From IMG/VR virus record IMGVR_UViG_3300035665_000085, positions 1 to 41,584 of that record: DNA of 41,584 nt; one strand, 5' to 3'. Positions 10,775 to 14,511 of the stretch are shown in pieces; positions within the stretch are counted from its first letter, which is position 1, and the number at the start of each line of letters is the position of its first letter. The position numbers were made by a program, and so were the translations under genes. Under the pieces are notes generated by a model. The model saw nothing but the letters and a program-made list of their open reading frames with translations, did no database searches and was not told the DNA's origin. This DNA is from a virus.

Positions 10775-10802
10775 ATGATACAGGCGGCGGCGTAGGTGTC
10801 AA
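10775..10802 (-). promoter_or_regulatory. Sigma70-like promoter for the replication/recombination genes
   Basis: On the minus strand TTGACA (10802-10797) is separated by 16 bp from TATCAT (10780-10775). It overlaps the stop codon of the Dps-like gene and would start RNA near 10768, giving a leader of about 150 nt before the initiator. It lets replication genes be expressed independently of the upstream early genes. Confidence 0.65.
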
Positions 10803-11771: not shown

Positions 11772-11835
11772 CGCTGCAGATGCAGCGGCTGCGTGACCAG
11801 GGATCGCACCTGGACTGGCCCACTAGGGCACGCAG
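11772..11835 (-). ncRNA. tRNA-like three-way element, copy 1
   Basis: Minus-strand order: 7-bp stem strand (CTGCGTG, pairing CACGCAG), hairpin CCC-TAGT-GGG, T-arm CCAGG-TGCGATC-CCTGG, closing strand, then hairpin CGCTGCA-TC-TGCAGCG (11772-11787). The T-loop keeps T54, C56, G57 and A58. The anticodon arm is absent. The element ends 11 nt before ATG 11760. The same order of helices with different stem sequences occurs at 12553-12617. Confidence 0.45.
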
Positions 11836-12319: not shown

Positions 12320-12337
12320 GCGCTTATATGCTGGCGC
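12320..12337 (-). promoter_or_regulatory. Start-associated hairpin Z1
   Basis: Minus strand GCGCC-AGCATATA-AGCGC: four of five base pairs around an 8-nt loop, 11 nt before ATG 12308, with the ribosome site between. Member of a family with 12530, 13774 and 14069. Confidence 0.5.
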
Positions 12338-12348
12338 CAGCGTAGACG

Positions 12349-12513
12349 TTAGCGGATTGCGACCAGGACAAGGCCAAGCAAGGCGACGATGGCAAACGCA
12401 ATCGCAGTGCCTGCAGCGTCAGCGATAGCCTGGCGACGGTCGCAGGTAGGGCACAGACCGCGCGCGGTAGTGTGAACGGCAAGGCACTGCGGGCACTGGT
12501 GACGCATGATCAT
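12349..12513 (-). CDS. Zinc-ribbon membrane peptide, copy 2
   Basis: 54 aa beginning MIMRHQCPQCLAVHTTARG, with Cys7/Cys10 and Cys21/Cys24 (CPTC) forming a zinc-ribbon and one transmembrane helix (TAIAFAIVALLGLVLVA, about residues 36-52). It is paralogous to 11587-11760: same metal ligands at almost the same positions, same RRQAIADAAG-type link and same anchor, but diverged sequence. GAGG lies seven bases before ATG 12513. Too short for usual gene-length cut-offs, but the duplicated architecture makes it convincing. Confidence 0.65.
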   Translation of the reverse strand: MIMRHQCPQCLAVHTTARGLCPTCDRRQAIADAAGTAIAFAIVALLGLVLVAIR

Positions 12514-12529
12514 AGTGTGACCTCATTGT

Positions 12530-12547
12530 GCGCCGATAATCTGGCGC
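12530..12547 (-). promoter_or_regulatory. Start-associated hairpin Z2
   Basis: Minus strand GCGCC-AGATTATC-GGCGC, perfect 5-bp stem with 8-nt loop, 16 nt before ATG 12513 with GAGG in between. Confidence 0.55.
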
Positions 12548-12552
12548 GAGTT

Positions 12553-12617
12553 GCTGCAGGATTGCAGCGGATCCGCGTCGCGGAGTCGGACCGCGACAAG
12601 CCCACCGGGGCGCGGAT
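12553..12617 (-). ncRNA. tRNA-like three-way element, copy 2
   Basis: Same helix order as 11772-11835 with changed stems: ATCCGCG/CGCGGAT outer stem, hairpin CCC-CGGT-GGG, T-arm-like hairpin TCGCGG-TCCGACT-CCGCGA (loop T54, C56, G57, A58 kept), then hairpin GCTGCA-ATCC-TGCAGC. Compensating changes in the outer and T-type stems argue for selection on structure. It precedes the second zinc-ribbon membrane peptide gene. Confidence 0.45.
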
Positions 12618-12628
12618 TGCAGTCTAGC

Positions 12629-13378
12629 CTAGGCTCCGATGCGCAGCGAATTAGCTGCACGCTTGGCGACCTTGGCGCTAGCGCCGTGGTCCTCGATCGA
12701 CACACTAGGACGGCGACTGCCGCGCGCGTTGCCGTCGCACAAGCCGCAGCGATTGCAATCGATGGCATTGGCGCGAGTAGACTCAGCAGACGCGGGACAC
12801 TGGATCTCGCCAGCAAGCAACGGCGAGCCGACTGGACGCACGCGGAAATATCGCCAGCCAGCCGCGCGCGCTGCCGCAGCGTCCTCGACAGTCTCGACGC
12901 TGGCCATGTGGTCGACGGCAAGATCGGGACGCGTGCGCCATGCGTGAGTGTAGCCTAGTGGCGCAAGGTCGTACTGCGCGCGGATGGCGCGCCAGCGTTC
13001 CAGCACCTCCAAGGGCAACGCTGCGGCGTCGCCGAATGCCGCAGACCGCGCGCGACGGACGCGCTTGGATGGCGTGACCGTGTCGCAACTGCGCGCCTTG
13101 ACGATCGACGCAGCGCCAGCAGTCAGTACCTGCGACGCGCCAGCATGGGTGTAGCAGCGTCCGTCCTGCAACGGGCAATCGCCACACGTTGACGCGCTAC
13201 CGTGGGCCTTGATCAGCGCCCACGGATTGGCGCCGCCGTCTGCAGTGTCGGGTAGGATCCACAGCGTGAGCGCCGGTCCCGTCTTTGCGTTGCCCGTTGC
13301 TTCCGCGATAAGCGCTTGGATGTCGTTGCCTGAATATGCACCGCCGATCGGAGCTCCGCGGTAAAGTATCTGGCTCAT
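12629..13378 (-). CDS. Cysteine-motif early protein of a family widespread in phages
   Basis: 249 aa from ATG 13378 (the frame is open far upstream but only this ATG has a ribosome site, GAGGG, and a start hairpin). The order TGNAKTGPALTLWIL, then STCGDCPLQDGRCY (Cys65, 68, 75), then a C-terminal cluster with Cys pairs (IDCNRCGLCDG) matches a family of phage early proteins of unknown function that share the CGDCP...CY signature. The Cys clusters suggest a metal or Fe-S site. Helical basic region around residues 105-140. Believed to act early, in the cytoplasm. Confidence 0.6.
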   Translation of the reverse strand: MSQILYRGAPIGGAYSGNDIQALIAEATGNAKTGPALTLWILPDTADGGANPWALIKAHGSASTCGDCPLQDGRCYTHAGASQVLTAGAASIVKARSCDTVTPSKRVRRARSAAFGDAAALPLEVLERWRAIRAQYDLAPLGYTHAWRTRPDLAVDHMASVETVEDAAAARAAGWRYFRVRPVGSPLLAGEIQCPASAESTRANAIDCNRCGLCDGNARGSRRPSVSIEDHGASAKVAKRAANSLRIGA

Positions 13379-13391
13379 GTTGTACCCTCTC

Positions 13392-13408
13392 GCGCCCGCT
13401 ACAGGCGC
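13392..13408 (-). promoter_or_regulatory. Start-associated hairpin with TGTAGCG loop
   Basis: Minus strand GCGCC-TGTAGCG-GGCGC, 13 nt before ATG 13378. The 7-nt loop is identical to that of the hairpin before the gene at 14420, where the stem bases differ. Confidence 0.55.
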
Positions 13409-13414
13409 ACTGTG

Positions 13415-13474
13415 GGAGCGTATGCACTCCGATCTACCCTGCAAGCACAGGCCTGCAGGGCAGCACGGAATGCA
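13415..13474 (-). ncRNA. Riboswitch-like leader element Y, copy 1
   Basis: A 34-nt core (13433-13466) is identical to 14114-14147 and contains an internal 7-bp stem CCCTGCA/TGCAGGG. It is enclosed by a 9-bp helix (TGCATTCCG with CGGAGTGCA, one wobble) whose sequence differs from copy 2 while pairing is kept. One strand of that helix can instead form GGAGT-GCATAC-GCTCC (13415-13430). Two exclusive folds upstream of a start-site hairpin and gene are typical of cis-acting RNA switches. No promoter or ligand is known. Confidence 0.55.
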
Positions 13475-13478
13475 CAAG

Positions 13479-13760
13479 CTAGGGGCATAGGATAGCGTCG
13501 AATTCGATAAACTCACCGCTCTCAGTCTCGTGGCTACCCTCGACGCGCACACTGAGGTCGTCCGATGGTGCACTGCGAAAGAACGTGCCTTGGTACTGTG
13601 TGATGCGCATCCATTCCCGATAGAACAGATCGGGAGTGTCGCGGAAATCGCATCCCGTGACGGTTTGTGTCGGGCCGCGGATGCCTGCGTCAATGATAGC
13701 GTGGATCGCCTCGACGCGACCGAGCATGGATGAAGGAAGAACGTGGGAATTGGTAGGCAT
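13479..13760 (-). CDS. Small acidic early protein (93 aa)
   Basis: Begins MPTNSHVLPSSMLGRVEAIH at ATG 13760, with CGGAG seven bases in front and hairpin Z3 upstream. The middle (GCDFRDTPDLFYREWMRITQYQGTFFRS) is aromatic-rich and the C-terminal third is acidic with beta character (RVEGSHETESGEFIEFDAIL). No domain recognised. It is one of five independently led small genes at the head of the early block. Confidence 0.6.
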   Translation of the reverse strand: MPTNSHVLPSSMLGRVEAIHAIIDAGIRGPTQTVTGCDFRDTPDLFYREWMRITQYQGTFFRSAPSDDLSVRVEGSHETESGEFIEFDAILCP

Positions 13761-13773
13761 GGTGTACTCCGAT

Positions 13774-13791
13774 GCGCCGATATGCCGGCGC
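13774..13791 (-). promoter_or_regulatory. Start-associated hairpin Z3
   Basis: Minus strand GCGCC-GGCATATC-GGCGC, 13 nt before ATG 13760; the stem can extend to 6 bp by pairing the first and last loop bases. GCTAGC directly precedes it, as at Z4. Confidence 0.55.
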
Positions 13792-13811
13792 TAGCTAGGG
13801 TTGACGGACAA

Positions 13812-14054
13812 CTAGGGCAACTGATCTTGCTCAATGCCGTAGTGGTCGCAGATAGTGGCGAGATCGGACATGACATCGTCGCGCCGGTCGCCGTCGGGCA
13901 GTTGCTCTGCGATTGCGTACAATTCGGCAATCGCTCGCTTTGTCGCGACCTTGCCTAGCAGCCCGTGAACAACGGCAAGGTATGCCGCAAAGACGCGTTC
14001 CTCGTATCCTGAGCAAAGGTTGCGCAATTCGTAAGTATCGCGGATGTCATTCAT
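13812..14054 (-). CDS. Small helical early protein (80 aa)
   Basis: Begins MNDIRDTYELRNLCSGYEER at ATG 14054; AAGGAG lies in the right place and hairpin Z4 stands before it. The sequence is almost entirely alpha-helical (AAYLAVVHGLLGKVATKRAIAE, then LPDGDRRDDVMSDLATICDH) and soluble. No motif. It is preceded by the second copy of the riboswitch-like element, which suggests its expression is controlled like that of the gene at 12629-13378. Confidence 0.6.
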   Translation of the reverse strand: MNDIRDTYELRNLCSGYEERVFAAYLAVVHGLLGKVATKRAIAELYAIAEQLPDGDRRDDVMSDLATICDHYGIEQDQLP

Positions 14055-14068
14055 AGCAGTAACTCCTT

Positions 14069-14086
14069 GCGCCGATGTGCTGGCGC
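14069..14086 (-). promoter_or_regulatory. Start-associated hairpin Z4
   Basis: Minus strand GCGCC-AGCACATC-GGCGC, 14 nt before ATG 14054 with AAGGAG in between. Confidence 0.55.
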
Positions 14087-14095
14087 TAGCTGTGG

Positions 14096-14154
14096 GGTGC
14101 TGGTCTGCACCGGTCTACCCTGCAAGCACAGGCCTGCAGGGCAGCACCGGTACA
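14096..14154 (-). ncRNA. Riboswitch-like leader element Y, copy 2
   Basis: Core 14114-14147 identical to copy 1. The enclosing helix is TGTACCGG with CCGGTGCA (8 bp with one wobble), and the alternative hairpin is GGTGC-AGACCA-GCACC (14096-14111), again a 5-bp stem with 6-nt loop. Both helices differ in sequence from copy 1 yet keep pairing. It lies between the stop of the 87-aa gene and hairpin Z4. Confidence 0.55.
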
Positions 14155-14156
14155 GG

Positions 14157-14420
14157 CTAGCCGCGATTAGCATAGCTCGTTTCCGCCTCTGCGAGAGTCT
14201 CGCAGTAGCGGCCACTGTACAAGGCAAGCTTGCCGGTGCGATACGGATGCGGCGCCGCGTACCACGTCGCAAACGGATGCAGGTTGTTGAAACGGCGAGC
14301 GCCAAGGACGATCCAGCCGTCGCCGCTTGGGCGCATGGCGAGCAGCTCCACGCCGTGATCTGGCGAGTAGGTGCGGACCTGATCAGGTATGAAGGCGAAG
14401 GTTTGGACGGTGTCGATCAT
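14157..14420 (-). CDS. First gene of the early block, hypothetical (87 aa)
   Basis: Begins MIDTVQTFAFIPDQVRTYSP at ATG 14420, first gene behind the early promoter. Beta-rich, aromatic core (GDGWIVLGARRFNNLHPFATWYAAPHP) and a helical end (LAEAETSYANRG). TGGAG precedes the ATG by eight bases. Being transcribed first it is likely the earliest product after DNA entry, the usual place for host-takeover proteins, but no family is recognised. Confidence 0.6.
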   Translation of the reverse strand: MIDTVQTFAFIPDQVRTYSPDHGVELLAMRPSGDGWIVLGARRFNNLHPFATWYAAPHPYRTGKLALYSGRYCETLAEAETSYANRG

Positions 14421-14482: not shown

Positions 14483-14511
14483 AGTCTAGGACTACCGTAA
14501 ACCAGTGTCAA
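14483..14511 (-). promoter_or_regulatory. Early sigma70-like promoter
   Basis: Minus strand TTGACA (14511-14506), 17-bp spacer, TAGACT (14488-14483). RNA would begin near 14476, about 55 nt before the first early gene. It is the most upstream recognisable promoter of the early block and should be read by host RNA polymerase, since the phage encodes none. Confidence 0.7.

Follow-up and report, generated by a model that had tools for sequence, protein, structure and literature searches.

Tall RNA hairpins and tRNA-like elements in the gaps between phage early genes

Two copies of a structured element with an identical core stand in different gaps of one early operon of an uncultivated phage. 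What does such an element do between genes? We addressed this question in IMG/VR record IMGVR_UViG_3300035665_000085, whose 41,584 nt of phage DNA are the window. The portal protein is distantly related, at about 22% identity, to those of phages of Arthrobacter and Microbacterium, and blastn against annotated phages with the region of the two copies returned no match. A sequence-only reading of this DNA had proposed that the copies are cis-acting RNA switches. Here, we compare that proposal with other roles, using the folding of the element, its position in the operon, its evolution in related phages and the structures that occupy equivalent gaps.

Two tall hairpins in a leftward early operon

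Both copies are read on the minus strand and lie within a leftward early operon (Table 1). Copy A is located between the 87-aa and 80-aa genes and copy B between the 93-aa gene and gene B, with the tall hairpins close behind the stop codons of the upstream genes; the gap preceding the 93-aa gene contains a start hairpin alone, without a large structure. Downstream of the promoter-like site at 14511, the next promoter-like site on the minus strand is found at 10802, both being consensus matches only, and the consensus scan revealed none at or just upstream of either copy. Because no promoter-like site stands just upstream of them, the copies are intercistronic and not 5' leaders of transcripts of their own. 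Neither copy has the stem followed by a U-tract that makes an intrinsic terminator, the scan having given a single terminator-like match, at 12415.

Table 1. Positions of the features discussed; those without a contig name refer to the window.
Feature	Position	Strand	Description
Promoter-like site TTGACA-17-TAGACT	14483-14511	minus	Sigma-70-like, operon head; consensus match only
87-aa gene	14157-14420	minus	upstream of copy A
Tall hairpin, copy A	14105-14155	minus	10-bp lower helix, one bulged G, 13-bp upper helix, CUGU loop
34-nt core, copy A	14114-14147	minus	identical to core of copy B
H2 of copy A	14096-14111	minus	GGUGC AGACCA GCACC; excludes lower helix
Start-associated hairpin GCGCC..GGCGC, 80-aa gene	14069-14086	minus	further copies at 13774-13791, 12530-12547 and 12320-12337
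80-aa gene	13812-14054	minus	downstream of copy A; missing in relative G001
93-aa gene	13479-13760	minus	between 80-aa gene and copy B
Tall hairpin, copy B	13421-13476	minus	11-bp lower helix, 2x2 internal loop (UG/AU), 13-bp upper helix, CUGU loop
34-nt core, copy B	13433-13466	minus	identical to core of copy A
H2 of copy B	13415-13430	minus	GGAGUG CAUA CGCUCC; excludes lower helix
Start-associated hairpin, gene B	13392-13408	minus	variant GCGCCUGUAGCGGGCGC
Gene B	12629-13378	minus	downstream of copy B; PHROG 2554, function unknown
tRNA-like element T2	12571-12617	minus	no anticodon arm; upstream of small Cys-rich gene (12513-12349)
tRNA-like element T1	11789-11835	minus	no anticodon arm; upstream of paralogous gene (11760-11587)
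G003 tRNA-like element	L024 2393-2438		in gap syntenic to that of copy B
G003 tRNA-like element	L024 3844-3890		intercistronic gap
L056 tRNA-like elements	8096-8051, 9103-9058, 9753-9708, 10155-10112	minus	all four between successive genes
G007 tRNA-like elements	L028 9236-9190, 7279-7230, 6689-6648	minus	last two weak or descriptor-only matches
G007 tall hairpins	L028 8446-8391, 7911-7856	minus	z-scores -7.8 and -6.4

The two copies form a direct repeat of 38 nt with one mismatch (13429-13466 and 14110-14147), and a repeat search bore out the 34 identical nt on which the sequence-only reading had been built. A 24-nt core with up to three mismatches recurs in the record at these two sites only, with none expected from 100 shuffles. 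The whole hairpins, core included, have 23 pairs in copy A and 24 in copy B, and refolding thereby gave more pairs than the sequence-only reading had described. The outer helices were rightly described as differing in sequence while keeping their pairing: they extend over 10 bp (A) and 11 bp (B), and flanks taken at random from the record reach at least 10 bp at a frequency of 0.0007.

Counting the pairs of 75-nt folds across the full genome proved too permissive, and folding energies were ranked instead. Among 20,764 56-nt segments covering both strands, the two hairpins rank first and second (-44.4 and -43.7 kcal/mol), and the best segment in 100 dinucleotide shuffles of the 3.7-kb operon region reaches -37.6 kcal/mol. 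The corresponding z-scores are -4.8 for copy A and -6.6 for copy B.

The folds are also biased towards one strand. The sense folds have -43.7 and -42.9 kcal/mol versus -27.8 and -30.2 kcal/mol for the antisense, and across three versions of the hairpin (the two copies and that of a relative) the antisense sequences fold 4 to 16 kcal/mol more weakly. All nine non-Watson-Crick pairs in these versions (4, 3 and 2) are G.U on the sense strand, and none is A.C. Since G.U pairs of the sense strand would be A.C on the opposite strand, this distribution favours hairpins that would act as gene-sense RNA over a DNA palindrome or cruciform. A coding origin of the hairpin is unlikely, as the loops of copy B and its orthologue in the relative differ by one base with no other indel in the hairpin, which breaks any shared frame.

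Structure, core sequence and alternative pairing among relatives

A degenerate search of IMG/VR with the core matched one relative, G001 (3300034062_006926), in which both copies are present and unchanged. The 80-aa gene is missing there (window 14054-13812 versus L001 11500-11600), so that copy A stands right before the 93-aa gene. The junction falls in the start-site hairpin repeat, which may be a gene-swapping point. Six further contigs matched in this search (L014-L019) have no common flanking structure and were taken as chance.

A second relative, G002 (3300033571_015411), has one copy, which precedes its gene B orthologue and has an outer helix resembling that of copy B. The upper helix, CUGCCCUGCAGGC/GCUUGCAGGGUAG in the window, is CUGCACACUAGGC/GCUUAGUGUGCAG in G002 and pairs equally well. 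Compared with the window, five of the 24 pairs are changed on both sides and still paired, four in the upper helix and one in the lower, and one lower-helix pair is lost (C.C). In the covariation alignment, whose five rows amount to three independent versions, this count of compensatory changes was matched in 0 of 500 shuffles. The core is replaced in G002 with the pairing kept; therefore it is the structure that is conserved and not the core sequence, and the core is no conserved aptamer. In L178/L179, which hold a distant homologue of gene B (32% identity), the leader of this gene is different and the element is absent from it.

Each copy stands ahead of a start-site hairpin and a gene, as had been noted from the sequence. 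The motif GCGCC..GGCGC has four matches against 0.41 expected, all of them just upstream of minus-strand start codons, giving a layout of four or five start hairpins, two of which have an inverted repeat upstream. This layout resembles the SAS-type elements known from cluster K mycobacteriophages (PMC3203893) and cluster EF Microbacterium phages (PMC7302621), in which repeats at the start codons of several non-structural genes are joined, in a subset, by an inverted repeat further upstream (PMC3203893, PMC7302621). The sequences are different: the 13-bp consensus GGGATAGGAGCCC that SAS have at start codons gave one match with two mismatches, which is not above chance (0.61 expected). The relative G003 has its own start-associated repeat, CGCACTGAGGTAGACAATG, ahead of three successive genes (L024 1738-2491), and this sequence is unlike that of the window.

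The parallel raises the possibility that a phage or host protein binds the core, either as an RNA hairpin or as a DNA palindrome, and regulates the downstream gene as ESAS might. Its position relative to the start-associated repeat and the fact that the core is identical in both copies of the window phage and of G001, and different in G002, are consistent with such a protein. However, ESAS, the consensus of which differs between cluster K subclusters, show departures that do not preserve RNA pairing (PMC3203893), and the ESAS of Adephagia contain SigA-like promoters (PMC11373665), whereas in the phage hairpin pairing is kept by compensatory change and no promoter-like sequence was matched at copy A or B. 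Together with the G.U pairs, which favour sense RNA, these differences leave regulation by a core-binding protein as an unlikely explanation, if one of some weight.

In all three versions, the 3' strand of the lower helix overlaps an alternative hairpin (H2), so that the two pairings are exclusive. The sequence-only reading had recognised both alternative hairpins of the window, though with 5 bp in copy B, where there are 6 bp and a 4-nt loop; in G002, H2 reads GGAGCG-CAUA-CGCUCC. Exclusive folds are what a cis-acting RNA switch would need, whether a riboswitch, a thermosensor or a translation-coupled attenuator, to gate access to the Shine-Dalgarno sequence. G002 offers some encouragement for this idea, as its H2 fold is 2.8 kcal/mol better than the tall fold (-62.3 versus -59.5) and the 5' strand of the lower helix then pairs with the Shine-Dalgarno sequence over 9 bp and sequesters it. 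In the window phage, however, forcing H2 costs 6.4 (A) and 11.1 (B) kcal/mol relative to the tall fold, covariation for H2 by itself is weak (one pair), and the replacement of upper helix and loop in G002 leaves no ligand-binding core conserved among the homologues. The element shares structured leader RNA and alternative pairing with Rfam riboswitches; unlike them, it has a core that varies between relatives and no Rfam match at the gathering threshold, permissive thresholds giving chance hits only (mir-504 and similar, far under the cut-offs), which agrees with the earlier remark that the core was not recognised as a known riboswitch class. Of the switch originally proposed, the structured RNA, the compensatory changes and the exclusive pairings are supported, and the riboswitch logic is not. 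A ligand switch is possible, yet not needed, and control by exclusive folds in general appears rather improbable.

tRNA-like elements without an anticodon arm

The more distant relative G003 has a gene B that is 79-80% identical to that of the window. In its gap preceding gene B, syntenic to the gap of copy B, a tRNA-like element replaces the tall hairpin. This element combines an acceptor-like helix of 6 bp with a short hairpin whose loop is GGU, then UU, and a T-arm that has 7 bp and the loop UUCRANY; the anticodon arm is absent. The same contig has another such element and the window itself has two (Table 1), and neither ARAGORN nor Rfam reports them. The occurrence of a tRNA-like element in the same gap argues for a shared punctuation role of the two structures and against ligand sensing.

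In organelle transcripts, tRNAs (tRNA punctuation) or t-elements stand between cistrons and are cut by RNase P and RNase Z. The phage elements are likewise tRNA-like structures between cistrons, but they have no anticodon arm and no encoded CCA right after the acceptor-like helix, and their processing is hypothetical. Our search of the open-licence literature, with subscription journals and preprints mostly outside its range, found no description of phage tRNA mimics that lack the anticodon arm.

A pattern search turned up this architecture, alongside chance matches, in many viral contigs that are not related to the window phage, and a covariance model added copies beyond the pattern selection, such as three of the four in L056. 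Over 21 distinct sequences, pairing holds in 92.9% of cells and 13 of the 17 pairs are changed on both sides; the covariation score was reached by 0 of 500 shuffles. This alignment was fitted to the structure, which biases the counts in this direction; a MAFFT alignment of six seed sequences, themselves selected for this geometry, agrees with it. Members of the class also occur in L184, L185, L028, L041, L080, L078, L032, L060, L037 and L082, and in viral contigs up to four copies stand between successive genes and often overlap or abut the upstream stop codon. With strict filters, a survey of one phylum (150 genomes) and one class (59 genomes) found none beyond the two genomes on which it was centred, and this near-absence from the surveyed prokaryotic genomes makes the elements look viral. 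In blastn searches of annotated phages with the tRNA-like loci, L056 and L028 were unmatched and L029 matched through its repressor gene only.

Several scattered occurrences were also observed. One tRNA-like sequence, GACTAACCAGGTGGTTTGCTTAGGTTCGAGTCCTAAATAGTC, is common to viral contigs of isolates (L029, L047, L053, L059, L079 and L083) and to Lentilactobacillus loci (L092, L094, L100, L110 and L157), and may be prophage DNA or an attachment-site relic. An element in an Aeriscardovia assembly (L144 2740-2693, minus strand) is followed by a terminator-like hairpin with a U-tract, and an archaeal genome (G019, Halobacteriales) has three matches, in L136 and two other places.

The use of both structures in gaps is not confined to the relatives of the window phage. 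In an unrelated 116-kb contig (G007), tall hairpins and tRNA-like elements take turns in the gaps that separate successive genes of a minus-strand operon, and one of these hairpins starts at the stop codon of the upstream gene. In addition, a hairpin of 6 bp with a 4-nt loop lies directly behind the tRNA-like element in all four cases of the window and G003; overall it accompanies 12 of 25 elements versus 22% expected, a modest enrichment (p = 0.004, with related elements not independent of each other). The two structures can take each other's place in one kind of gap, which suggests a common job for the gap. The tRNA-like class is probably more surprising than the hairpins and the part most worth following.

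Proposed intercistronic processing and RNA punctuation

The early mRNA of phage T7, about 7 kb in length, is cut by RNase III at five sites (PMC4858673), and one of these, R1.1, lies in an early intergenic region and forms a hairpin of 60 nt that has a 4/5 internal loop (PMC6121014). We folded T7 sites for comparison with the phage hairpins. Without any claim of sequence similarity, R1 and R1.1 and the elements described here are alike as imperfect, sense-oriented hairpins in early-gene gaps, upstream of the next ribosome binding site. Copies A and B have the helix of at least about 20 bp with a loop or bulge, kept in structure rather than sequence, that is expected of such a site, and gene order together with the promoter scan places them between genes of what would be one polycistronic early transcript. 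The phage hairpins differ from R1 and R1.1 in being taller (23-24 pairs), in having a 3' strand that can form a second hairpin downstream, in the start-associated hairpins that follow them and in their tRNA-like replacement in a relative, and cleavage at them is predicted from this comparison.

The likeliest reading makes the hairpins a novel variant among intercistronic processing hairpins. The specific reading in which the copies punctuate a single polycistronic early transcript as processing hairpins of the RNase III type is, in our estimate, about an even bet. Each gene cassette would consist, in order, of a large RNA structure, H2, the start-site hairpin, a Shine-Dalgarno sequence and the gene. 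The tall hairpin, with about two helical turns and an internal loop or bulge, would be the substrate of a ribonuclease for double-stranded RNA, RNase III being an example. Once the hairpin is cut, its lower helix would no longer hold and the 3' strand of this helix could fold into H2, which may then cap the 5' end newly made on the mRNA of the downstream gene. On this view, the RNA would have one of the two exclusive folds until cleavage and the other afterwards, and no ligand would be involved. Two points call for caution: RNase III tolerates many hairpins, and a fold alone does not prove cleavage; furthermore, the core is identical in A and B though their lower helices differ, which could mean sequence-specific recognition.

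Very stable hairpins close behind stop codons could also stabilise the transcript or act as a REP-like barrier to ribosomes or RNA polymerase, guarding the upstream mRNA at its 3' end with no specific cut being made. We consider this quite improbable, since a simple barrier would need neither the internal loop or bulge that recurs at one position nor the overlap with H2, and replacement by a tRNA-like element points to the substrate of an enzyme. Two copies with identical cores and the swapping of gene cassettes between relatives might also suggest a palindromic repeat, mobile or selfish, that spreads through the phage without function; this is highly improbable given that both copies share their orientation and an equivalent gene-leader position and that pairing is maintained in G002 despite a different core sequence.

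The processing reading may extend beyond this operon. As a tentative generalisation, which we hold at somewhat below even probability, many phages may punctuate their polycistronic operons with interchangeable tall hairpins and tRNA mimics, from which RNase P, RNase Z and RNase III would cut per-gene mRNAs. With similar reserve, the mimics could be regarded as a so far unnamed class, in which the acceptor-like helix, the T-arm and a D-like hairpin whose loop contains GG are kept and the anticodon arm is missing. If this is true, operons would be split at the RNA level by exchangeable cassettes in which each gene has its own cutting signal, and it would explain how small genes are swapped within an operon without disturbing their neighbours. 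The tRNA mimics would then be expected natural substrates of tRNA-processing enzymes inside phage mRNAs, and would provide a simple and testable handle.
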